Assembly: GCA_001856825.1 (NCBI GenBank)
Contig: ATMD01000004.1
Coordinates: 490,568 to 554,567, forward strand
Direction: 5' to 3'
DNA from: Thermoplasmatales archaeon I-plasma
GTDB taxonomy: Archaea > Thermoplasmatota > Thermoplasmata > Thermoplasmatales > GCA-001856825
Length of the DNA stretch: 64,000 nt
Shown one piece after another: positions 2,716 through 27,743 of the stretch. Position 1 is the first letter of the stretch. Every line of letters begins with the position of its first letter. The position numbers were made by a program, and so were the translations under genes. The notes under the pieces were generated by a model that was given only the letters and a program-made list of their open reading frames with translations, was not told the DNA's origin and ran no database searches.

Positions 2716-3654
2716 ATGGAGAATGAGATAGTACAGGTATACGACCTGGAAAAACTGCAGGAAGAAACGCCATTCCTGATATTTGTTCCAGGCAATTTGG
2801 AGATCAGGAATGTGACATACCGCACGGGAGGAAGAAAGTGGCCGACATTGCGGTATGAATGCATAATAGATGGAGAGAAGATCAGGGTGAAGGAATTCTT
2901 CCTAGACTGGTTCTATCCAGGATTTCCCAAGAGTCTTATGCAATCTTTCGTCTCCTCATATTCTATGGTTGATAGTATACCAATGAAGGACTGGGTAATT
3001 TTCACTGGCAAGAACTACAAGGGTAAGGAGGCATCGTCATCTTTTTCTCTTGGAACACAGATAGAAGTGGAGGGGGAGTCAAGGAAGAATGTCAGTAAAC
3101 TTAGTGAAACAATGTTCGACCCATTCCCAGATGAAAGATTCAAAAGATTTCCATTTTATAGAAGGTCATTCTTCGCAAATAAGGGAGAGCCTGAATGGTT
3201 TGAGGAGAGGAGGATAAGTAACCTTGACTGGAAACCTCCGAAGAGTGACTTCTGCGTAGGAGACCTCTGCATGGACTCCGTAGGTGTCTTCAAAAAAGAC
3301 GGCAGCACCGTAGAGACAATTTTCACTTTCTCTGAAGAATATTACAGGAGGGCTGCATGGGTCGATATAGCCAGGCCTACAGAGCAAGCCGAGCACTTGA
3401 TATACGACTTAAGGAACAGTGGTAATTTCTTCGAAGAATTCGAAAGTGGAGAACCGACATTTGCATTCAAGAAAGAGCAAGGACCTGCAATAGCCAGATC
3501 GAAATTTGGGGAATATGTCGTCACTGTATCCCTATCCCCCCTGTTCGGTTTTTCTGAGGCAAAAGGTATAGTGAGGGATTTGATGGGTACCGTCGAAGAC
3601 CGATATTGGGACAGAAGTCCCTCTAACTGTGCAATAACATCAAATTGTGAATGA
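2716..3654 (+). CDS. Hypothetical protein with IS-replaced C-terminal tail
   Basis: I do not recognise the family. The 312-residue product is soluble, rich in aromatic residues (EFFLDWFYPGFPKS, ERFKRFPFYRRSFF) and has no transmembrane segment or recognisable catalytic motif. The start ATG at 2716 is about 26 bp after a TATA-like stretch. The last codons are foreign: after codon 295 (V-E-D at 3592-3600) the frame enters an insertion sequence at 3602 and gains a tail ending RSPSNCAITSNCE before stopping inside the element. Joining the sequence across the duplicated target gives V-E-D-Q-K-K-F-I-stop, so the ancestral protein was about 300 residues and nearly all of it remains. It may therefore still work. 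Confidence 0.7.
   Translation: MENEIVQVYDLEKLQEETPFLIFVPGNLEIRNVTYRTGGRKWPTLRYECIIDGEKIRVKEFFLDWFYPGFPKSLMQSFVSSYSMVDSIPMKDWVIFTGKNYKGKEASSSFSLGTQIEVEGESRKNVSKLSETMFDPFPDERFKRFPFYRRSFFANKGEPEWFEERRISNLDWKPPKSDFCVGDLCMDSVGVFKKDGSTVETIFTFSEEYYRRAAWVDIARPTEQAEHLIYDLRNSGNFFEEFESGEPTFAFKKEQGPAIARSKFGEYVVTVSLSPLFGFSEAKGIVRDLMGTVEDRYWDRSPSNCAITSNCE
3592..3601. repeat. Target-site duplication, left copy
   Basis: GTCGAAGACC directly abuts the left terminal inverted repeat of the insertion sequence and is repeated exactly at 4813-4822. Confidence 0.9.
3602..3618. repeat. Left terminal inverted repeat of the IS
   Basis: GATATTGGGACAGAAGT. It matches the reverse complement of 4796-4812 (GACATTGGGACAGAAGT) at 16 of 17 positions. 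Confidence 0.88.
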
Positions 3655-4591
3655 GCCCCTTGCAGAACCCTGACGTTTCTTTTCTGTCCTTCCTCCTCTG
3701 ATATATCAGGCCTCCCGTAGCTCTCTTGTCTGAGGAGAATCCAGATTCTGATGCATTCCTCTTGAAGTATTCCCTGAGATAGTTCATCGGATCATCCATG
3801 AAGCGCCTGATTATTTCCCTCCAGTTCCTTCTTCCCCTTATCCTGGAGTTGCTCTTAGGGATGAGGAATATCATTGTGTTTTCATTGAAATCATCAAGTA
3901 TGCTCTGTCCCGAGTAATATTTGTCCAAACGGATGCTCTTAAGGTCAATGCGCATCTTACCTATCATCTCTAATGCCTTATGATACGCATCCTTCTCCGA
4001 TCTGACGGAAACTGCATATCCAACATACATCCTTGTTGCCAGATCCATCAGTGCGAATGAATAGACAAACTTCCCCTCCTTCACAAATTCACCATCTTTC
4101 TCCCTCATGGAACGGTAGTGCTTCGTGACGGTGAGGGAATACCCGGTACCGTCACCCGATGTGTCAGCGGAAGAGATGCCCTTTCTCATGACGGAGCTGA
4201 TGAAGAGGTTATTCAATATCATCAGGACAAGAGGATCTGAATATAGCCTCTCGACGGTCTTGTAACTGATGTCCTTGCTAATTCCGAGAAGAGGAAGGAG
4301 GTAAGCGGCCTTCCTGTTGCTCAGTCGGAATATCTCCTTCACAAGGATAACGAAGACCTTCTCCCTTGCTTCCAGCAACGAGGGTCTTCCAAACTCCTCT
4401 ACAACGAAGGAAGAGGACTCGTCTATCATTGCTCTGAGCTCCAGAGCCATGCCCTTCATCCTCTGCCTGTAGAGATACTCGTAATCCCTCCAGTTTGTTG
4501 TCACTGGTATGGAGAATTCCTCCCTGTAGCGGGACATGAGTTCTTCAATGGAGTCACGGAAATACTCATAGTCCAGCTGGGTGATCCTCAT
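3623..4591 (-). CDS. DDE transposase of the insertion sequence
   Basis: The 322-residue reading used here begins MRITQLDYEYF at 4591. An upstream in-frame ATG at 4678 would add 29 residues that run through the promoter zone and overlap the divergent ORF, so it is unlikely. Candidate catalytic acids are the aspartates in SADTSGDGTG and SIRLDKYYSG and the glutamate in NASESGFSSDKR, with the usual lysine/arginine next to it. The basic C-terminus (IYQRRKDRKETSGF) ends 21 bp inside the left end of the element. No frameshift or stop is seen. A TATA-rich stretch at about 4601-4622 separates it from the divergent small ORF. Confidence 0.85.
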   Translation of the reverse strand: MRITQLDYEYFRDSIEELMSRYREEFSIPVTTNWRDYEYLYRQRMKGMALELRAMIDESSSFVVEEFGRPSLLEAREKVFVILVKEIFRLSNRKAAYLLPLLGISKDISYKTVERLYSDPLVLMILNNLFISSVMRKGISSADTSGDGTGYSLTVTKHYRSMREKDGEFVKEGKFVYSFALMDLATRMYVGYAVSVRSEKDAYHKALEMIGKMRIDLKSIRLDKYYSGQSILDDFNENTMIFLIPKSNSRIRGRRNWREIIRRFMDDPMNYLREYFKRNASESGFSSDKRATGGLIYQRRKDRKETSGFCKGLIHNLMLLHS

Positions 4592-4628
4592 TACGAAAAT
4601 GTAATATATATGGGGTATATATACATTT

Positions 4629-4793
4629 GTGCGCAAGGTACAGATAAAGGAAGGGAACCAGATCACCGTGAAGAACATTCAGGCTTACATGGAAAGGACA
4701 GTCACAAAATTTGGATCTGGTGCCAAAGTTGACTGTCCTAAGGAGTTTCTGGGGAAGAAGGCCTTCCTGATCATAAAGAAGGATGAAGATTAG
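4629..4793 (+). CDS. Small IS-encoded accessory protein (DUF2080-like)
   Basis: A 54-residue frame starting at GTG 4629 and ending TAG 4791-4793, three bases before the right inverted repeat. The product begins MRKVQIKEGNQITV and continues through MERTVTKFGSGAKVDCPKEF to AFLIIKKDED. This layout (charged start, GSGAKVxxPKE core, K-rich end) matches the small archaeal transposon-encoded proteins called DUF2080, which accompany ISA1214-type transposases. The strand is opposite to the transposase and the two share a 37 bp AT-rich divergent promoter. Its role in transposition is unknown. Confidence 0.7.
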   Translation: MRKVQIKEGNQITVKNIQAYMERTVTKFGSGAKVDCPKEFLGKKAFLIIKKDED

Positions 4794-5927: not shown

Positions 5928-6077
5928 ATGAAAATAGAAATGGATGTGACATGTTTTTGTCTCGGAACTGGAAAGAAATTTTGCATGAACTGCTTCGGAA
6001 AAATGGATGAGAACACAATGGATGTCGAAACACAACCGGCCTTTCTCCTTCGTGATGTGACCAAGGGGGGAAACTGA
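5928..6077 (+). CDS. Small Cys-rich protein (49 aa) heading the ATPase cassette
   Basis: ATG at 5928 to TGA at 6075-6077. The stop shares its last base with the ATG of the next gene (TGATG), which argues for translational coupling. The product starts MKIEMDVTCFCLGTGKKFC and contains CxC and CxxC pairs (C9, C11, C19, C22) in a zinc-ribbon-like spacing. It is too short for most gene callers. I do not recognise the family; zinc binding is inference from the cysteine pattern. Confidence 0.45.
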   Translation: MKIEMDVTCFCLGTGKKFCMNCFGKMDENTMDVETQPAFLLRDVTKGGN

Positions 6078-6634
6078 TGTCTTCATACTGGAAAATTTAT
6101 GTACGGGACAGGGAGAATCTAAGGTTTCTTCTCAATATCTTACTGACCAATAGGGAAACGGAGCTTACGATCAGGAGGAATGACTCACTGTTAGTGTTTG
6201 TTGGCTACAGCCACAAGGAGGCCGAAATTGTCCAGTATATCAGGGAGGAGCTTGGTAATAAGATTGAGAATGTTCTTCTCAGCAAACAATGGAAGGAAAA
6301 TGTGTACTTGTTCAATAAGCCGAGGTTCATATTTGATTCAATTTTTCCTTTTTTGGTTGAAACTTCATCCTTTTTGATGAAAGGTGACGAAGTACACGTG
6401 AGGGTTGAAAGGTACTCTACATTAAATCCCCTGAGGAGGAGGTATTTGGGTCAAAAGGCAGGAAAGGTGCTCTACAGGGTAAGACTTTTTTCGCCAATCC
6501 TGCTGAGGGCCTATACTAACAGGGATGGAAAGCAGTGCCTCACTTTTGAGAGAAGAAATCCCTTAATACTCACAAGCTACGAGCTTTCATCGCTCATAAA
6601 TGGGAGTGGAGACCATGGACTACTGGCCATATGA
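6077..6634 (+). CDS. Hypothetical protein, partner of the downstream ATPase
   Basis: A 185-residue soluble protein of no family I recognise. It is highly basic and aromatic in its second half (YSTLNPLRRRYLGQKAGKVLYRVRLFSP) and has no membrane segment. Its start overlaps the stop of the 49-residue ORF by one base, and its end overlaps the start of the ATPase gene, so the three are almost certainly one transcriptional and translational unit. A role as substrate adaptor or DNA-binding partner of the ATPase is a guess from this coupling only. Confidence 0.65.
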   Translation: MSSYWKIYVRDRENLRFLLNILLTNRETELTIRRNDSLLVFVGYSHKEAEIVQYIREELGNKIENVLLSKQWKENVYLFNKPRFIFDSIFPFLVETSSFLMKGDEVHVRVERYSTLNPLRRRYLGQKAGKVLYRVRLFSPILLRAYTNRDGKQCLTFERRNPLILTSYELSSLINGSGDHGLLAI

Positions 6635-8264
6635 AAACGGCATACCATTCCCCCTCGTAGAGAAAAGAATATGCTTCCCTAGGGAGTTCCTTGAAAACCA
6701 CTCTCTTGTCCTCGGGAAAACTGGAACAGGAAAGTCAAACTTGCTTGCGCAACTGATTAGGATGTACGAGGAAGAGGGTAAAACTGTGTTGGTCTTTGAT
6801 CCTCATGGTGAACTTTGGAAATACGGTAGCCCAAATTCATCCATTGTAACCCTTTCACCTTTTCCCGGCCAGGAAATGGGATTCCTACGGTTCAACATGA
6901 TGTCAGTCCTACCTTACCAGAGCGAAAGGGAACGATTGATAAACGAAGAACTTGTTGTGCAGACTCTTAAGGATATATTCTCCACGGAATCTGCTTTTTC
7001 TATAGGCACTTGGGGACCGAGGATAGAGCTGATATTCACCGTACTTACCAGACTGCTCCTGAAGTACAAGATCAATCCGACAATCCAGGACCTGGCTGAC
7101 CTGCTCCTTAATTATTACAAAAGAAAGGATTTTTCATCTTCGCTTGAACCTGAGGAAAAGACGCAATTCTATTCAATATTCAGCCAGGGGCCGGAGTTCA
7201 TATCATCCAGCGTTAACAAGATTGTCCCTCTACTGACAAGCGATGTATCCAAGAAGCTATTCGCATCAAGGGAGGATTTTTATGACCTTTCGAAACTGAA
7301 GAATACCCTTTACGTAGAACTATCTGGAGAATTTTCTCCAAGTTCCCTTGCCAGGCCATTTTCGATAATGCTTCTATACAAGATTTGGAACAACGTGATT
7401 CTTCGGCGAATGAGCGATGTAGTTCTGGTCATGGATGAATTCCAAACCTTCTCCCCCCACATATCGCAGCGACTGGTAACTGAAGGAAGAAAATTTTCCC
7501 TTTGGGCAGTCATGGCGACACAATCACTCTCATCCCTTGATCAGTCGCTTGCCTCTGCAATACGGACAAATGCCCACAACTTCTTCCTATTTCAGCTCTC
7601 CAACGAAGACGCATCCTCATTTAGATACGGTGGAAAGCCCTTAAGGAATCCGGAATTTCACAGATTCAATTGCCTTGTACCAAGGAGCGAAAGTACATTC
7701 TACGGAATGACTAGATTGGCCTCTCCCAGCAAGGAATTCTCTATTTCAAGGGAATTCTATGATTTCGCGGGTGACGAGGAGATACTCGACAGCGAATTTC
7801 CGGAAAGGATGGACCCGGTTCGCCTTAGCAACCTGATATCTTTGGGCCTGGCAACGATTGTTGACGGAAAGGTGCATATGGAGGAGGAATATTTCGAAAA
7901 GATTGGTTCAAGGCACAAGAGAGGGAGTGAGTCGATGTTCCACAGGTACCTTGTTACAAGATCGTATTTCTTTTTCAGGAATAAGGGGTATGATGTTTAC
8001 GAAGGAATAGAGTACGACGGCCGTCGACCGGACCTTGTTATAGTGAAGGATCAGGAGAGAATTGCAGTAGAATGCGAATATTCCGATGTTCATAATAAAT
8101 CGAGAATCATTGAGAAGATGAAATTCTACAGCAATGTCATATTTTCCGCTTTCAGGGACAAGAAGGGGGAGTTCCCTCCTGACACCAATCTGCTGCTGAT
8201 TCCCCCTATTGGGGATCATTCTGAGCCAGAATACTTGGGGGATAGGAATGTAATTGACCTATGA
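6615..8264 (+). CDS. HerA/VirD4-like ATPase fused to a nuclease-like domain
   Basis: With ATG 6615 (preceded by GGGAGTGGAG) the product has 549 residues; a start at 6600 would add five. Residues 34-41 are the Walker A motif GKTGTGKS, residues 60-65 FDPHGE, 271-277 the Walker B LVMDEFQ, and 301-304 ATQS, the pattern of conjugation-type and HerA-like DNA-translocating ATPases. After about residue 435 comes a separate segment with YEGIEYDGRRPDLVIV and IAVECEYS, followed by lysines K501/K503. It resembles PD-(D/E)xK or replication-relaxation type domains (E463, D473, E486 as candidate acids), although the usual lysine after the glutamate is absent. There is no membrane segment. Context is a three-gene overlapping cassette. 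Confidence 0.75.
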   Translation: MDYWPYENGIPFPLVEKRICFPREFLENHSLVLGKTGTGKSNLLAQLIRMYEEEGKTVLVFDPHGELWKYGSPNSSIVTLSPFPGQEMGFLRFNMMSVLPYQSERERLINEELVVQTLKDIFSTESAFSIGTWGPRIELIFTVLTRLLLKYKINPTIQDLADLLLNYYKRKDFSSSLEPEEKTQFYSIFSQGPEFISSSVNKIVPLLTSDVSKKLFASREDFYDLSKLKNTLYVELSGEFSPSSLARPFSIMLLYKIWNNVILRRMSDVVLVMDEFQTFSPHISQRLVTEGRKFSLWAVMATQSLSSLDQSLASAIRTNAHNFFLFQLSNEDASSFRYGGKPLRNPEFHRFNCLVPRSESTFYGMTRLASPSKEFSISREFYDFAGDEEILDSEFPERMDPVRLSNLISLGLATIVDGKVHMEEEYFEKIGSRHKRGSESMFHRYLVTRSYFFFRNKGYDVYEGIEYDGRRPDLVIVKDQERIAVECEYSDVHNKSRIIEKMKFYSNVIFSAFRDKKGEFPPDTNLLLIPPIGDHSEPEYLGDRNVIDL

Positions 8265-8859: not shown

Positions 8860-9562
8860 GGCTGTCAGCCTTCTTTCAGGTGGCCTGGACAGTTCCACTC
8901 TCCTCTCTTACGTCCTGTCCAAAGGATATGAAGTGATAGCACTGTCATTTGACTACGGACAACGACACACAAGGGAGCTGGATTCTGCTAGGAAAATAGC
9001 AAGTTACTATGGCGTGAAACACAAGATTATGAAACTGGATTTGAGGGCAATCGGTGGAAGCGCCCTTACAGGGGATATTGAAGTTCCCGACGTTCCTGTG
9101 GAAGACATTGGTAAGGAGATACCGGTAACGTACGTCCCGGCAAGGAATACTATACTGCTGTCCATAGCACTTGGTCTTGCGGAGGTGACTGACTCATCCA
9201 AGATATTCATAGGTGCCAATGCACTGGATTACTCAGGTTACCCTGACTGCCGGCCGGAGTATTTCGATTCCATCAACAAAACATTCAATTTGGCAACCAA
9301 GAAGACTGTGGAAGGTGGTAGCATCGAGGTTGAGGCCCCCTTACTGCGATATTCTAAAGCAGATATAGTCAGACTTGCAAACAGGCTCAAAACGCCTCTA
9401 GAGCTGACCTGGTCTTGCTACAACGGGAAGGAAAGAGCTTGCGGCGTATGCGATTCCTGCAAACTCAGGTTGAAGGGTTTCATGGAGGCAGGGCTGGAAG
9501 ACCCGGTTGAGTATGAATCCTACCCTGATTTTTATTCCGATTATATCAAAGAAAGAAGGTAG
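8834..9562 (+). CDS. queC: 7-cyano-7-deazaguanine synthase
   Basis: A PP-loop ATPase with the N-terminal SGGLDSSTLL pyrophosphate-binding motif, SFDYGQRHTRELDSA, the PARNTI segment, and a C-terminal zinc site CYNGKERACGVCDSCKLR. It converts 7-carboxy-7-deazaguanine to preQ0 using ATP and ammonia, the precursor of archaeosine at tRNA position 15. The ATG at 8834 (MQNQAGKNK) is preferred to the one at 8816, which would lie deeper inside queD. The overlap with queD indicates coupled translation. Confidence 0.93.
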   Translation: MQNQAGKNKAVSLLSGGLDSSTLLSYVLSKGYEVIALSFDYGQRHTRELDSARKIASYYGVKHKIMKLDLRAIGGSALTGDIEVPDVPVEDIGKEIPVTYVPARNTILLSIALGLAEVTDSSKIFIGANALDYSGYPDCRPEYFDSINKTFNLATKKTVEGGSIEVEAPLLRYSKADIVRLANRLKTPLELTWSCYNGKERACGVCDSCKLRLKGFMEAGLEDPVEYESYPDFYSDYIKERR

Positions 9563-9634
9563 TTTACTATAGTCTAACAAGATCAATGAATTATTACAGG
9601 GAAAAACAATTTAACAGATTAATACTGGGGTGGT

Positions 9635-10030
9635 GTGATAAAGGACCTTGAGATCACTTCAATAGAGGGCAGAAGGTATGCCCCTATAGACACAAGACCG
9701 CAGGAAGTCAGGATAGATCAAAACTTGACAATTGTTGACGTAAGGAAGGAGAATGAGTTTTCAAGAATCATCTACAAGTTCACATCTTCATTTTCAACTC
9801 TTGGAGCAATTTCACTTGAAGGTTCTCTTCTTTACCAGGGTGGAGAAGAGATAGAGGTAAAATGGAAAAAGGACAAATCGCTTCCAGACCTGGTAGCAAA
9901 CGAGGTGCAAACTGCAATTTTCTCGTCTTCTGTAATTGAGACAATACTGATAGCGAGGGATCTTAGACTGCCACCACCCATTCCCATGCCTACTATACAG
10001 AAGAAGAAAGATGTAGTAGGATTTGGATGA
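9635..10030 (+). CDS. Conserved hypothetical protein, possibly SecB-like fold
   Basis: A 131-residue protein beginning at GTG 9635. The predicted content is mainly beta strands followed by one helix (DLVANEVQTAIFSSSVIETILIARDL) and a proline-rich RLPPPIPMPTIQ tail. That end (helix, then LPPPIPxP) resembles archaeal and bacterial SecB-like proteins, but the similarity is weak and by eye. No catalytic motif is visible. It stands alone between queC and the convergent TFS gene. Confidence 0.5.
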   Translation: MIKDLEITSIEGRRYAPIDTRPQEVRIDQNLTIVDVRKENEFSRIIYKFTSSFSTLGAISLEGSLLYQGGEEIEVKWKKDKSLPDLVANEVQTAIFSSSVIETILIARDLRLPPPIPMPTIQKKKDVVGFG

Positions 10031-10083
10031 TATTCTAGTTATACCAGAACAGGAGGCAATATTCCCTGAAATGTCCTAGACTC

Positions 10084-10389
10084 TCAGTACTCTCTCCAAC
10101 GATGACCGCAGTGAGTGCAGGTGTAAAATCTCGTTTCTGGCTCGTCTGCAGCTCTGGTCTGTAAAGCTTCCCAATAAACGCCAAATTCGTGGCACTTTGG
10201 GCATTGAACTGTCTTGTCTATAGGTAGGTTAATCTCTTCCTTCTCTACTACAATAGTTTCCTTCTTCTTGCCCTTCTCCACTATGCCTTTCTTCTCTTCT
10301 TCTTTGATAGGGAGTGTATTTCCACATTTCCTGCATACCCAAACTTCCCCCTTTGGGAACATCATCGACCCACACTTAGGACAGAACAC
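10084..10389 (-). CDS. tfs: Transcription factor S (RNA polymerase subunit M/TFIIS-like)
   Basis: A 101-residue protein with two zinc ribbons: C3/C6/C19/C22 at the N-terminus (FCPKCGSMM...VCRKCGN) and C63/C66/C91/C94 at the C-terminus. Between the last pairs is QTRAADEPET, with the acidic D82-E83 pair that enters the RNA polymerase active site to stimulate transcript cleavage. The linker is a lysine/glutamate-rich stretch. The gene is monocistronic and 40 bp divergent from the methyltransferase gene. Confidence 0.95.
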   Translation of the reverse strand: MFCPKCGSMMFPKGEVWVCRKCGNTLPIKEEEKKGIVEKGKKKETIVVEKEEINLPIDKTVQCPKCHEFGVYWEALQTRAADEPETRFYTCTHCGHRWREY

Positions 10390-10429
10390 TAATTCCCAAA
10401 GTTATATTAAATAAATACATTTTCCTGCG

Positions 10430-11323
10430 TTGAGAGTCCCGTACATTAAAATCAAGCAATCAAAGGCAAACGAGGAGATTGAAAGGTTAAGAAGAAGCGA
10501 TGAGCTACTGAAACAGTTCAAGATTAGGAGGGAAGGCAGCTGGGTCATGGTACCGGTAAGGAATTCCGAACTGGAGGGTGAGTTTGAAGAGAACTCAAAG
10601 AAGAAGATGGAGCACGTTGGAAGCTTCGAGAAAATATCTGATTTCTTCGTCATAAAAGAGAGGGAAGGATGGGAAAAGGTACTTGACGAGATAAGGGAAA
10701 AACAGAATCCAAGAGCGATATTCCTGGATAAGGGAGTGGAAGGACGGTTACGTATTAGGAAGCTTGAACTGATTTACGGCAAGGGGAAGCCAACTGGTAT
10801 CATCAAGGAAAATGGTCTACGTTACATTGTCGATCTGCAAAGGGCATACTTCTCACCCCGGCTGGCAGGGTTGAGGAGGGAAATCACGGATAACTGTCTA
10901 AATTCTTCTGACTCAGAACTAGTAGTCGATATGTATGCAGGAATTGGGCCAATTTCAATACCTCTGCTGAAAGGAGGGAAGAAAGTGCTTTCAATAGACG
11001 TAAATCCAAGCGCCGTAGAGCTGCTTTCCAAAAACATGAGGCTAAACAAAGTCAGAGGGAATATGTTGATCGCAGATTCTAACAGTATATTCGACTGCCT
11101 TGAGGGTGTAGGTGAGGTAATAATGAATAATCCTACTCAACCTCTGTCCGTGACAAATAGCATAATCGGAAAGATGGAATCCGGTACAGTCATCCATGTG
11201 ACATACATATCCAACAAGACTGATAAGATAGAATTTGACGGCGCGAGCGTTCTTGAAAGAAAGATTGTTCATGGTTATTCACCAACATCCTCACTTTTTT
11301 ATTTTAGAATGCGAAAGAAGTAA
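10430..11323 (+). CDS. tRNA methyltransferase of the Trm5 family
   Basis: A 297-residue SAM-dependent class I methyltransferase starting at TTG 10430. Motif I is VVDMYAGIGPISIPLL (about 165-180), preceded by FSPRLAGLRREI, whose arginine matches the catalytic arginine region of Trm5. The MNxP motif is present as MNNP (N233, P235), where most archaeal Trm5 proteins have MNLP. The likely product is m1G37 in tRNA; a wyosine-pathway Trm5 relative cannot be excluded. The protein is shorter than the Methanocaldococcus enzyme (about 336 residues). It is followed by uppS after 32 bp. Confidence 0.75.
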   Translation: MRVPYIKIKQSKANEEIERLRRSDELLKQFKIRREGSWVMVPVRNSELEGEFEENSKKKMEHVGSFEKISDFFVIKEREGWEKVLDEIREKQNPRAIFLDKGVEGRLRIRKLELIYGKGKPTGIIKENGLRYIVDLQRAYFSPRLAGLRREITDNCLNSSDSELVVDMYAGIGPISIPLLKGGKKVLSIDVNPSAVELLSKNMRLNKVRGNMLIADSNSIFDCLEGVGEVIMNNPTQPLSVTNSIIGKMESGTVIHVTYISNKTDKIEFDGASVLERKIVHGYSPTSSLFYFRMRKK

Positions 11324-11355
11324 ACAATTTATTCCTTTTAACCATCTACTTGACG

Positions 11356-12141
11356 ATGCCAAAGCAGGGATTCTTCAATTCTGTCCTTTCGGGAATAAGG
11401 GAACGGTACGAGCAAAGTCTCCTTGAGGATATAAGAAAGGACCCTCTGCCGAAGCATATTGCCGTTATAATGGATGGTAACAGAAGGTTTGCAAGACAGC
11501 TCAAGGTATCTGACGACGAAGGCCATCTTCTTGGAAAGGAGAGGTTAGAGGAATTTCTAGACTGGGCCTACGATATTGGTATAAAGATTGTGACTGTCTA
11601 TGCCTTTTCTACAGAGAATTTCAAGAGGGATGCATCGGAGATAGAATATCTCATGAATTTATATGCGAATAGCTTCAACGACCTTATACGTGATGAAAGA
11701 ATAACAAAGAACAGGATCAGGGTGAAACTTATCGGTAAGACAGAGCTTCTACCTGAAACGCTCAGGGAAGCTGCAAGGAGGGCCGAGGAATATACAAAGG
11801 ACTTTGACAAGTACCTACTCAACGTAGCAATTGCTTACGGCGGAAGGGAGGAGATTCTAGATGCCATCAAGAACATATCAAAGGAAGTAATGAAGGGGAA
11901 AATAAATCCTGACAGTATTGACGAAAAACTAATTGAGAAATATCTCTACACTGGAGATATAGAAGACCCAGACTTGGTAATAAGAACATCGGGGGAGGAG
12001 AGGGTCAGCAACTTTCTGCTATGGCAGTCAGCATATTCCGAGCTTTATTTTACAGATGTATACTGGCCTGACATAACAAAACTTGACCTTCTCAAGGCCG
12101 TGAGGGATTACCAGAAGAGACAGAGGAGGTACGGAAGATAG
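11356..12141 (+). CDS. uppS: Polyprenyl diphosphate synthase, cis (UppS family)
   Basis: A 261-residue cis-prenyltransferase. The substrate-binding motif HIAVIMDGNRRFAR is near residue 36, TVYAFSTENFKR follows, and RTSGEERVSNFLLWQSAYSE and DVYWPD near the C-terminus complete the family set. It elongates an allylic diphosphate with isopentenyl diphosphate to make the lipid carrier for glycosylation. ATG 11356 is chosen; a TTG two codons upstream is also possible. Its stop (TAG) shares one base with the GTG start of tiaS. Confidence 0.93.
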   Translation: MPKQGFFNSVLSGIRERYEQSLLEDIRKDPLPKHIAVIMDGNRRFARQLKVSDDEGHLLGKERLEEFLDWAYDIGIKIVTVYAFSTENFKRDASEIEYLMNLYANSFNDLIRDERITKNRIRVKLIGKTELLPETLREAARRAEEYTKDFDKYLLNVAIAYGGREEILDAIKNISKEVMKGKINPDSIDEKLIEKYLYTGDIEDPDLVIRTSGEERVSNFLLWQSAYSELYFTDVYWPDITKLDLLKAVRDYQKRQRRYGR

Positions 12142-13412
12142 TGCCTATTATCGGTATAGATGATACTGACTCCAAGACGGAGATGTGCACCACCTACCTC
12201 ACAATTGAAATATTGAAAACCTCAAATCTTGATCTTGTTGGATACCCGAATCTCGTCAGGCTTAATCCGAACATACCACTGAAGACTAGAGGAAATGCAG
12301 CTATTTCCATTACGCTAGGAAGGGGGGGTGGGGAAAGGACAGAAATTGGTAAAATAGGGGATGAACCCATATTCTCGTATGAACGGTATACTGAAGAAAA
12401 AATGGACATTGACGTCATGTCCCTTATAGAAAGATTTTCCCCAAAGGACAAGGATACAAATCCTGCTCTAGTGATAGGAAGTGAGAGGAATGACGAGAAC
12501 TTTTACTGGGATGCCGTCAGGGAATATGTGGACTATGAGAAAGTGATTGGAAGAATAAAGGGGGAATTCAGGACTGTGAATGGACAGATAGGGGTTGTCG
12601 GGGCTAATGCTGCCATCTCTTGGCCTGGAGTAAACAGTACATTTGAATTGATCGCATATCTTGCAAACGAAAGGTGGGGAGGTGAGCATTTTGTTGATGA
12701 CGCAAGTTCTATGAGGATAGAGCAAACATATCCTGACACTTTTGACAGTTTCGACTTCAATAACAATTATAATGCCATCAGGCCAACAACGAAGACTCCC
12801 GTGCTGTTCGGGATAAGGGGTATAAACCCTGCCCGACTAATTAAATACGGAAGTGAAGTGAAAAGCGAGCCTTACCATTCTTACATTGTTTACCGCACTA
12901 ACCAGGGAACAGACGATCATCTGGTAGAGAGGAGTATTGGCGGGTCAAAACTTTACAATTCCTCGATAATACGGGGATTCGTCTCTTCAGAACCTCTATG
13001 GGCGAGGGGGGGAATACTAAGTTTTGATATCACAAACAAGGGAGAAAGTATCAAGGTTGTGGCAATGGAACCAACTAAGGAATTCAGGAACACTCTTTCT
13101 AAACTGAGGAAGGGGGACGAAGTCAGGATATACGGGGGAATCACCAAGGCAGGAATCATAAACGTCGAGAAGATACAACTCATATCCGTTTCATCCGTGA
13201 TAGAAGTTAGGCCACCCCTCTGCCCAAACTGCGGAACTAGAATGGAAAGCGTTGGCAAAAATGGTGGTTTCAGGTGCAGAAAGTGCGGTGCTCGCAGCAA
13301 AACAGGTGAAGTAAAGAAGGAGAAGAGGGAGATAACCCCTGGTTTCTATGAAGTCCCGATCATAGCCAGAAGGCATCTTGCCAGACCACTAAAATTAGGA
13401 ATCGTAAAATGA
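12141..13412 (+). CDS. tiaS: tRNA(Ile2) 2-agmatinylcytidine synthetase
   Basis: A 423-residue protein beginning IIGIDDTDSKTEMCTTYL, the signature start of TiaS. The middle part carries FGIRG and the DUF1743-type kinase core, an OB-fold follows, and a zinc ribbon CPNCGTRME...FRCRKCGAR closes near residue 360-385. TiaS attaches agmatine to C34 of the AUA-decoding tRNA-Ile and is essential in archaea. GTG 12141 is used as start. Its end overlaps the next gene by 4 nt (ATGA). Confidence 0.95.
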   Translation: MPIIGIDDTDSKTEMCTTYLTIEILKTSNLDLVGYPNLVRLNPNIPLKTRGNAAISITLGRGGGERTEIGKIGDEPIFSYERYTEEKMDIDVMSLIERFSPKDKDTNPALVIGSERNDENFYWDAVREYVDYEKVIGRIKGEFRTVNGQIGVVGANAAISWPGVNSTFELIAYLANERWGGEHFVDDASSMRIEQTYPDTFDSFDFNNNYNAIRPTTKTPVLFGIRGINPARLIKYGSEVKSEPYHSYIVYRTNQGTDDHLVERSIGGSKLYNSSIIRGFVSSEPLWARGGILSFDITNKGESIKVVAMEPTKEFRNTLSKLRKGDEVRIYGGITKAGIINVEKIQLISVSSVIEVRPPLCPNCGTRMESVGKNGGFRCRKCGARSKTGEVKKEKREITPGFYEVPIIARRHLARPLKLGIVK

Positions 13413-13894
13413 TATGCGTAACAGGAACACCGGGAGTTGGAAAGTCCACGGTCAAGAATGAATTGAACCAACGTGGGTTCAAGGCCCTGGAATTTGACTC
13501 ACTGATAGGTGATTGTATCGTTGAGGAAGTAGAGGGGGAGAGGATTGTGGATGAGGAGTGTCTTCATGAAATCAATGCAGACGGCATATACTTCGGACAC
13601 TTATCCCACTTTTCCAAATGCAGAAAAGTTGTAGTAATGAGGGCGCACTTAGCTGATATTGAGGCCAGGCTCAAGGAAAGGGGGTACAGCAAATCAAAGA
13701 TCATGGACAACCTTGAAAGCGAGGCTATTGACCTGATAGGCTTTGAGGCAGAGGGATTTCATCCCGGTGACACCTTCGAAGTTCTTAACTCCAGCGTGAA
13801 AGAGACAGCGGACTTCATAGAAAATATAATTAAAGGAAGAGAGCCTAAGAGCCTGAAGATCGACCTTGTGGAGGAGATACTGGATTGGTATTAG
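13409..13894 (+). CDS. AK6/Fap7-type adenylate kinase
   Basis: A 161-residue P-loop NMP kinase with CVTGTPGVGKSTV at the N-terminus and a short lid region LKERGYSKSKIMDNLESEAID, typical of archaeal homologues of Fap7/hCINAP. These have adenylate kinase and ATPase activity and act in small-subunit ribosome maturation. The start overlaps tiaS by 4 nt and the end overlaps the next gene by 10 nt, so it sits inside one operon. Confidence 0.9.
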   Translation: MICVTGTPGVGKSTVKNELNQRGFKALEFDSLIGDCIVEEVEGERIVDEECLHEINADGIYFGHLSHFSKCRKVVVMRAHLADIEARLKERGYSKSKIMDNLESEAIDLIGFEAEGFHPGDTFEVLNSSVKETADFIENIIKGREPKSLKIDLVEEILDWY

Positions 13895-26276: not shown

Positions 26277-27038
26277 TTACTCGAGCCAGTCAGTACCAAC
26301 TGATCTGAAGCCAACCTTTGGAATATAGAAGTTAATTCTCTTGTGAGCACTGCTCTTTACAAGAGCATAGATCCTCCTTACCTCCTGAATGCTGCATCCA
26401 GCCACCTTGCATTGTTCAGGTACCTTCAGATACTCAAGACATTCAAGTATCCTGTCAAGCTTTTCATATGAGATTCCCAGCTCGCCCTCATCCGTCTGAC
26501 CTTCCCACAGGTCAGCACTAGGAGGCTTTTTAAGCAACCATTCAGGGAAGTTATACTTACTTGCTATAGCATATATCTGAGTCTTGTACAGGTCTCCCAA
26601 GATTTGAAAATCTGATCCTCCGTCCCCGAACTTTGTGAAATATCCTGTAAGAAGCTCACTTTTATTCGATGTGCCTGCGACCAGTCCTTTATATTCGTTG
26701 GCCTTATAATATAGGAAAACCATCCTCAGCCTTGACTTAACGTTACCTAGCAGTTTGTTATCGTTAGTCATGTTTTTGAAGGGTGCCAGTGAGCCACTGA
26801 GATCTACAGTCTCATATGGCATATCCAAGAATTCTGAAACCCTTTTGACATCATTGCCTTCCTTTCCGAAAGGAAGAGAGTAGAGGTGAATCTTCTTTTT
26901 GTTGATGTTCCTTCTTAGAATATAAGCTACCATTGTGGAGTCGATTCCTCCTGATACTCCGACTACCACGTCTTTCTTACCGACAAATTCCTTCGTGAAA
27001 ACGTCAAGAACTTCAGTCGCCCCCTCAAGAAGATCCAT
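26277..27038 (-). CDS. nadE: NH3-dependent NAD+ synthetase
   Basis: With ATG 27038 (MDLLEGATEVLDVF) the product has 253 residues, the size of archaeal NadE without a glutaminase domain. The PP-loop VGVSGGIDSTMVAYI is near residue 26, and GTSNKSELLTGYFTKFGDG and KPPSADLWEGQTDEGELG carry the remaining substrate motifs. It amidates deamido-NAD+ with ATP and ammonia. A longer frame begins at 27134, but that extension runs through the tRNA-Ser gene on the other strand, so it is rejected. The AT-rich stretch at 27055-27070 serves as its TATA region. Confidence 0.93.
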   Translation of the reverse strand: MDLLEGATEVLDVFTKEFVGKKDVVVGVSGGIDSTMVAYILRRNINKKKIHLYSLPFGKEGNDVKRVSEFLDMPYETVDLSGSLAPFKNMTNDNKLLGNVKSRLRMVFLYYKANEYKGLVAGTSNKSELLTGYFTKFGDGGSDFQILGDLYKTQIYAIASKYNFPEWLLKKPPSADLWEGQTDEGELGISYEKLDRILECLEYLKVPEQCKVAGCSIQEVRRIYALVKSSAHKRINFYIPKVGFRSVGTDWLE

Positions 27039-27093
27039 TGTGATTGGAAACGTGGAAATAATAATAAACCTTGTGTATTTGTGGATGAGCAAA

Positions 27094-27190
27094 GCCGGGG
27101 TGGCCCAGACCGGTAAGGCGCAAGCCTGGAACAAATTTACGGAAAGCTTGTTCTCGCAAGAGATCGGGAGTTCAAATCTCCCCCCCGGCG
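27094..27190 (+). tRNA. tRNA-Ser (GGA) with a 13 nt intron
   Basis: Acceptor GCCGGGG (27094-27100) pairs with CCCCGGC (27183-27189), with discriminator G at 27190 and no encoded CCA. The anticodon stem CAAGC/GCTTG encloses 20 nt rather than 7; taking GGA at 27128-27130 as anticodon leaves a 13 nt intron at 27132-27144 in the canonical 37/38 position. A long variable arm with TCTC/GAGA stem (27151-27165) is class II and, with G73, supports serine. T-arm GGGAG-TTCAAAT-CTCCC is at 27166-27182. Confidence 0.92.
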
Positions 27191-27263
27191 CTTATTGACC
27201 TTCTCGCTGATATTCTTGCGAAGAGAACAAAATATAAACACTTCCTGCTGCTCTATCAATGGA

Positions 27264-27743
27264 GTGGATGAAATTTTGAAGAAGTGCATCGTCGCAGGTG
27301 TCTTGATAATAAACAGAGAAGGGGACAAGGTGCTACTCGTCAAGCACAGGAAACTTGGGGTATGGATATATCCCGGCGGACACTTAGAAGACGGAGAGAA
27401 TCCGCTTGAATGTGCAATCAGGGAATCGAGGGAGGAAACAAGCTCTACCTTCAAAATATTATCTACCGATAAATTCTCCATATCGGAAGAAGGGGCAAAA
27501 AGTCTACCCCAACCGCTCATAATAATGGATGAGATCGTACCATACTCCAACGGGCCACACGAACACTTTGATTTAATTTATATTGGTATTGCTGAGAACA
27601 TGGAATTTCGTTCTAATGATGAGTCATCGGACTGCAGATGGTTCAAGCAAGATGAGATTGACAGCCTGGAGACATTCGACAACGTAAAAAAAATAATTGG
27701 AAAGGGATTTGAGACCTTCTCTAGAATTACTGGCAAAGCGTAA
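27264..27743 (+). CDS. Nudix hydrolase
   Basis: The Nudix box is complete: GHLEDGENPLECAIRESREETSS fits Gx5Ex7REUxEExGU, with Thr/Ser in place of the final glycine region. The product of about 159 residues should hydrolyse a nucleoside diphosphate linked to another moiety; the substrate is not predictable. Start choice: a TATA-like AAAATATAAAC at 27228-27238 places the transcript start near 27262, so GTG 27264 or TTG 27276 (MKKCIVAGVLI) is more likely than the upstream frame reaching 27195. Confidence 0.82.
   Translation: MDEILKKCIVAGVLIINREGDKVLLVKHRKLGVWIYPGGHLEDGENPLECAIRESREETSSTFKILSTDKFSISEEGAKSLPQPLIIMDEIVPYSNGPHEHFDLIYIGIAENMEFRSNDESSDCRWFKQDEIDSLETFDNVKKIIGKGFETFSRITGKA

Follow-up and report, generated by a model that had tools for sequence, protein, structure and literature searches.

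The locus analysed here raises the question of why an acid-loving archaeon with a genome of 1.69 Mb should carry, on its chromosome, a compact group of overlapping genes in which a DNA-translocating type of motor is joined to a nuclease-like domain. The original prediction had placed three overlapping open reading frames in the window (the whole stretch of 64,000 nucleotides that was analysed) and had proposed that they form an undescribed DNA-processing or defence unit, with end processing, conjugation and defence named as possible settings. The three reading frames were found where that prediction had put them, and the features discussed below are as follows.

5928..6077, + strand: 49-aa ORF ahead of the partner gene, probably serving as a leader or in translational coupling
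6077..6634, + strand: 185-aa partner protein, modelled as a tandem ferredoxin-like (beta-alpha-beta) protein
6600..8264, + strand: 554-aa fusion of a motor and a putative nuclease domain, VirD4/TraG-type as judged by DUF87, TrwB_AAD_bind and tree
6687..7784, + strand: RecA/FtsK-HerA-type ATPase core, residues 30-395 of the 554-aa numbering
7815..7904, + strand: small winged-helix-like segment, residues 406-435, between motor and nuclease domain, from model secondary structure and alignments
7935..8261, + strand: PD-(D/E)xK-type domain, residues 446-554 of the 554-aa numbering

The junction between the 49-aa ORF and the 185-aa gene reads TGATG (6075-6079), as had been noted, and the 20-nt overlap described for the second junction holds if the motor gene starts at ATG 6615 (549 aa, the numbering of the original prediction), becoming 35 nt with the alternative ATG at 6600 (554 aa, the numbering used here unless stated). 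In close species pairs NG86 dN/dS is 0.07 for the motor and 0.11-0.15 for the 185-aa gene, so that both are genuine genes under purifying selection. These ratios bear directly on the idea that an integrated conjugative plasmid has decayed and left the unit without present function. That idea would be in keeping with the occurrence of the nearest architectures on plasmids and with the near-neutral evolution of the 49-aa ORF. Values of 0.07-0.15 for partner and motor largely refute this idea, the motifs are intact in all 58 homologous sequences and synteny is shared across the family, and we therefore regard it as extremely improbable.

The smallest reading frame had been described as a Cys-rich microprotein belonging to the cassette. 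Its position, a Shine-Dalgarno-like GAGGTG, the start codon, the frame and the approximate length (42-50 aa) are kept within the genus, but the peptide is fast-evolving, its cysteines come and go between relatives, and its dN/dS is 1.1-1.6 in the two closest species pairs, a value based on few sites and small counts. With cysteines unconserved and dN/dS about 1, a Cys-rich protein was rejected as a component, and the ORF is probably a leader or translational-coupling ORF. The expectation that the three genes stay together thus held in part: in all loci of the host's family for which upstream sequence exists, the 185-aa gene lies ahead of the motor gene and overlaps it, while the 49-aa ORF is no conserved third protein. 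Counterparts of this ORF in two sister genera (L016/L017) are under purifying selection (dN/dS 0.15), and it may therefore be a real small protein elsewhere.

The large protein was examined as two parts. All elements of the HerA/VirD4-like motor that had been recognised are present: Walker A (residues 39-46; 34-41 in the 549-aa numbering), DPHG (67; 62), the Walker B DEFQ (279-282; 274) and ATQS (306-309; 301), together with TWGPR (137-141). Two Pfam families match above cut-off, DUF87 (2.6e-12) and TrwB_AAD_bind (4.4e-8; for PF10412, 32.9 bits against a cut-off of 20.5). A tree of motor cores, in which the deep branches are weakly supported, places the unit with VirD4-like plasmid proteins, apart from VirB4 (support 1.0) and from the organism's own HerA; the CedB-like ATPase of the type IV secretion system (T4SS) cluster described below sits next to the unit, on a long branch. 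On these sequence criteria, the large protein is a motor ATPase of the VirD4/TraG type, the type IV secretion coupling kind, and not the organism's HerA. An N-terminal transmembrane anchor is usual, but not universal, in T4SS coupling proteins. The highest 19-residue hydropathy is 1.06 in the motor and 1.11 in the partner, neither of which has a transmembrane anchor, and homologues from the plasmid pT33-3 and from Natronorubrum are also low (1.45 and 0.83). The winged-helix-like segment that follows the motor is small in this protein; a fuller winged helix-turn-helix occurs in a second Thermoplasmatota family (f3), in the genome G127 of another family, and in plasmid relatives, where matches of the MarR/TrmB type were obtained.

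The C-terminal domain had been proposed to resemble PD-(D/E)xK or replication-relaxation proteins, and its AlphaFold2 model (pLDDT 84.9) does fold as a nuclease domain, with the order helix, three strands, helix, strand of PD-(D/E)xK domains. The top Foldseek matches are largely members of that superfamily (3dnx, CdiA-CT, Bax1, R2 endonuclease, Cdn1, Hjc and McrC). Among the sequence searches, a profile search against PDB sequences gave nothing meaningful, single members match MTES_1575, CoiA_nuc, Replic_Relax and Hjc, all below threshold, and Replic_Relax (PF13814) was matched by 1 of 58 members at an E-value of 0.059, under the Pfam cut-off. Among the 58 homologues, some only about 20% identical, five residues are invariant in the pattern H..PD..ExE..D: H448 in the first helix of the model, D478 where the second strand begins, E491 and E493 at the third strand, and D496. 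R502 and K506, the latter in the next helix, are near-invariant. The site as first proposed was therefore partly right: D473 and E486 (549-aa numbering) are invariant in all 58 sequences, E463 is unconserved outside the family, and H443, E488 and D491, equally invariant, had been missed.

The domain thus has the core fold of the superfamily and the acidic residues of motifs II and III (D478 and E491), but the (D/E)xK lysine is absent in all 58 sequences, with the invariant Glu493 in its stead. In BamHI, a D..ExE site with glutamate in place of the lysine is catalytic, and by this analogy nuclease activity of the C-terminal domain is plausible. The missing lysine can also be read differently, with the domain as a non-catalytic DNA- or protein-binding module (a dead PD-(D/E)xK fold) that docks the substrate while another protein nicks it. 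In bacterial coupling proteins the C-terminal domain often docks the substrate, and dead PD-(D/E)xK folds are known, so that there are precedents for such a module. Five residues held invariant at about 20% identity are, however, more than docking needs, and plasmid relatives keep the same PD..ExE pattern that is catalytic as D..ExE in BamHI. A docking role is accordingly possible in our view, if doubtful.

For the 185-aa protein, AlphaFold2 gives a confident model (pLDDT 90.6) of a tandem ferredoxin-like protein without a transmembrane helix. Foldseek returned generic ferredoxin-like folds (best E 0.026), a sequence search found no relative in the PDB, and the protein belongs to no known family. 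Its place beside the motor is nevertheless occupied in other lineages. In family f3 and in Thermoplasma, an ORF of 206-221 aa overlaps the motor likewise; the f3 counterpart aligns with the 185-aa family (hhalign 2e-4), whereas homology is undetectable for the Thermoplasma protein (206-208 aa). Partner proteins of the G127 type and of haloarchaea are alignable in part (2e-5), and in most genomes of family f6 there is no recognisable partner beside the motor. Since the partners are alignable only in part and mostly unalignable between lineages, we infer their equivalence from position.

Relatives of the unit are found on archaeal conjugative plasmids. A tblastn search against plasmids returned haloarchaeal TraM-recognition proteins and a 103-kb plasmid of Thermococcus nautili 33-3 (NZ_OX281346.1, 103,230 bp), which strain and size indicate to be pT33-3; the relatives carry names such as 'TraM recognition' or 'T4SS DNA-binding' protein. 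A layout of motor, winged helix and PD..ExE domain is common to the VirD4-like proteins of haloarchaeal plasmids, of Sulfolobus plasmids of the pNOB8 type and of pT33-3, which is self-transmissible, and each archaeal plasmid that was examined shows PD..ExE towards the C-terminus of its VirD4-like protein. The direct comparison of the Thermoplasmatales and plasmid domains is weak (hhalign 16%, 0.0015), and their homology therefore rests on an intermediate, G127, a member of the Thermoplasmatota from another family in which partner, motor, winged helix and nuclease-like domain have the same arrangement. The Thermoplasmatales C-terminal profile matches the G127 motor at 1e-10, and nearly the whole length of that motor is matched in turn by proteins of Sulfolobus conjugative plasmids. 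With a profile built from C-termini of the G127 type, matches were obtained to the C-terminal parts of VirD4-like proteins of haloarchaeal plasmids (2e-14 and 2e-12), Sulfolobus plasmids (6e-6 to 2e-3) and pT33-3 (5e-4); hhalign returned 96%, 3e-9.

Gene order on the plasmids is similar. On haloarchaeal plasmids a partner ORF overlaps the start of the motor gene and is itself preceded by a conjugal-transfer gene or a second motor gene ('TraM recognition' in Halorussus), and on pT33-3 an upstream ORF overlaps the VirD4-like gene. Sulfolobus plasmids and pT33-3 carry 270-324 residues ahead of the motor within the same protein, and the 185-aa protein appears to be the positional counterpart of the N-terminal region of the one-piece Sulfolobus VirD4-like proteins. 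Conjugation had been among the options named at the outset. A review reports that transfer of pT33-3 requires its VirB4 and VirD4 genes and that the plasmid has no known relaxase (PMC12857230), and traG is essential for the transfer of pM164 (PMC9899855). Because archaeal conjugation proceeds without an identified relaxase, the PD..ExE domain is a candidate substitute for one. The T. nautili 33-3 plasmid also encodes a CoiA-family protein and a PD-(D/E)XK nuclease family protein (L164:5118-6398 and 26753-27508), which are other candidates for DNA processing in transfer.

On chromosomes the motor has a pattern of vertical inheritance. It occurs in 15 of 15 genomes of the host's family at 45-96% identity (once as a fragment at a contig edge), in single copy in every one and with conserved synteny, and in families f3 and f6 at about 25-34% identity, including MAGs of Thermoplasma and Cuniculiplasma (L093, L095, L080); family f4 and several f6 genera lack it. 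Two divergent copies of the motor-nuclease, in different gene contexts, are present in some Thermoplasmata MAGs (L055 and L086, L083 and L088, L056 and L084). Across 62 loci the neighbours are mostly housekeeping genes, such as queD/queC, HU, citrate synthase, FAA hydrolase and TenA, together with one recurrent unknown family of about 300 aa ('cluster 1'); no defence genes and no toxin or methylase partner were seen among them. IMG/VR gave only distant motor matches, and a viral origin was rejected.

This distribution weighs on the suggestion that the unit acts in restriction-like defence against mobile elements, translocating on foreign DNA and degrading it. HerA-nuclease pairs do act in defence, and in PADLOC the motor scores best against mad8 (3.7e-16) and also hits several HerA defence models. 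The mad8 match is nonetheless confined to the motor among the three window proteins scanned, and no other Mad genes lie beside it. A single copy per family genome with conserved synteny among housekeeping genes makes defence very unlikely, and the unit can hardly be called undescribed in full, as an ATPase of this kind is already annotated in Thermoplasmatales (arCOG04816; PMC5155288).

The recurrent neighbour family immediately adjoins the motor gene, on one side or the other, in many other genera, and a member is encoded in the window:

2716..3654, + strand: 312-aa protein of the cluster 1 family, a recurrent neighbour of the motor in other genera

Members are present in 22 of 33 genomes with the motor and in 0 of 28 without it (61 genomes; Fisher 1e-8, kinship ignored), and within f6 in 7 of 13 against 0 of 8 (p 0.018), and co-occurrence persists even when the two genes lie on different contigs. 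As the family is found only in motor-bearing genomes, the 312-aa protein is a probable further component or partner of the motor. A profile search of the family against PDB sequences gave nothing meaningful, and a relationship with the 185-aa protein was rejected, as the two show no similarity. A transposase-like ORF on the minus strand (window 3623-4678) overlaps the 3' end of the 312-aa gene, and the last residues of the protein differ from those of a 92%-identical relative (L036), in which no such insert was seen.

A compact cluster of secretion genes was found in the same genome, outside the window:

G000:C2:153859-160008 (L098:5860-12009): Ced/Ted-like T4SS cluster

It encodes a T4SS-pilin-like protein with two transmembrane helices (PF18895, 8.7e-5, just under cut-off), a VirB6-like protein with eight, a protein with one, a VirB4-like ATPase (CD1110 family, 6e-22) and a CedB-like ATPase of 677 aa, and a Gins23-like gene comes next. 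All f6 genomes that were examined, and most genomes of the host's own family, have the pilin, so that DNA exchange may be general in Thermoplasmatales. T4SS genes occur in 19 of 19 motor-bearing genomes of at least 90% completeness and in 13 of 18 motor-less ones (p 0.02, kinship ignored), and in about 15 motor-less genomes overall. The motor is encoded apart from the cluster and, because motor-less genomes also have T4SS genes, its link with the T4SS is not obligate and it does not define the system; it may mark those lineages that also process or export DNA.

The same genome carries a true HerA elsewhere (HerA NCBIfam 5e-46, with a HAS-barrel match), and NurA was not found in it. This combination invites the reading that the unit is a housekeeping DNA end-processing machine replacing HerA-NurA, in which the motor would pump while the fused domain resects ends in recombination repair. 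Such a role would agree with the missing NurA, with the single-copy, core status of the unit in its family and with motor-nuclease coupling that is the same in principle. It is harder to reconcile with the presence of the true HerA, with a motor that lacks a HAS barrel and stands nearer to TrwB/VirD4, with relatives on conjugative plasmids, and with the many related genera that have no motor, unlike a core repair enzyme; we consider it unlikely. The HerA gene, at G000:C3 (L099:6970-8421 and 9175-13891), lies next to a small helical ORF and to two paired genes, one of them for a UvrD-like helicase, and these neighbours are a possible alternative nuclease partner for HerA.

The reading that we prefer, with a probability of roughly 0.6, is that the unit, chromosomal and vertically inherited, is a coupling module of an archaeal T4SS-like DNA transfer system, in which the C-terminal domain would replace the relaxase. 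The 185-aa protein would be the detached N-terminal part and would form, with the motor, a cytoplasmic coupling ring; the winged helix would position the nuclease domain, which would nick or trim chromosomal DNA; and the motor would pass the resulting DNA to the VirB4/VirB6/pilin machine, whose genes lie elsewhere in the genome, for DNA exchange between cells, the nuclease domain thus filling the place of the relaxase missing from archaeal systems. It should be noted that the roles in nicking and transfer are deduced from sequence and models. A broader proposal, which we offer tentatively, is that the PD..ExE domain on VirD4-like motors is the missing nicking enzyme of archaeal conjugation and chromosomal exchange alike, so that the coupling protein would cut and pump its own substrate. 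The proposal has the merit of naming a concrete enzyme with named residues, and a mating assay already exists for pT33-3; if the preferred reading is true, Thermoplasmatales keep a domesticated DNA transfer system. VirD4-like ATPases and PD-(D/E)xK domains are individually known. As far as our searches show, the regular occurrence of the two as one protein in archaeal conjugation systems, and the possibility that the fusion replaces a relaxase, are apparently undescribed, and a limited literature search found no paper describing the PD..ExE domain.

Compared with known systems, the unit shares a fold group with Replic_Relax (PF13814), CoiA_nuc and MTES_1575, two of these three being tied to DNA transfer or uptake, although its domain is fused to a motor and matches them only below threshold. 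With HerA-NurA it shares the pairing of a HerA-superfamily motor with a nuclease. Its nuclease domain is, however, fused and of the PD-(D/E)xK rather than the RNase H-like kind, and the earlier remark that neither partner is a NurA agrees with this difference and with the absence of NurA from the genome. No HAS barrel was found in motor or partner and HerA_C stayed under cut-off, and membership in HerA-NurA was rejected on the HAS barrel, the absent NurA and the separate true HerA. The Ced/Ted systems (CedA, CedA1, CedB, CedD; PMC9905601, PMC11868833) resemble the proposed system in being chromosomal, T4SS-like machines for DNA exchange with related motors, but CedB and CedD are VirB4-like and are not described as having a nuclease domain. 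Among NCBIfam models the motor matches CedD best (1.2e-8), yet at 34.1 bits the match lies far below the 600-bit equivalog cut-off of NF053655, and membership was rejected.

The closest chromosomal comparison is with Cuniculiplasma, of the same order, for which PMC5155288 lists a TraG/TraD/VirD4 ATPase (arCOG04816; CSP5_0791, CPM_0795) lying apart from the T4SS cluster. This is the same kind of ATPase, likewise encoded apart from the VirB4 cluster, and is very likely the orthologue of the motor, given a Cuniculiplasma MAG (L080) that carries the motor; the text consulted describes neither a nuclease domain nor a partner gene nor the 312-aa neighbour for it. Finally, the unit is most like the VirD4/TraG ATPases of archaeal plasmids (pT33-3 WP_285519946, pNOB8 WP_011229432, pARN3, pAH1, pTC and those of haloarchaea), with which it shares the TrwB/TraG-type core, the winged helix and PD..ExE, and with haloarchaeal plasmids and pT33-3 also the overlapping ORF upstream of the motor. 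Unlike them, the unit in the window is chromosomal, vertically inherited and not beside VirB4; its N-terminal region appears as the separate 185-aa gene rather than in one piece as on Sulfolobus plasmids and pT33-3; and its family adds an invariant histidine to the site.
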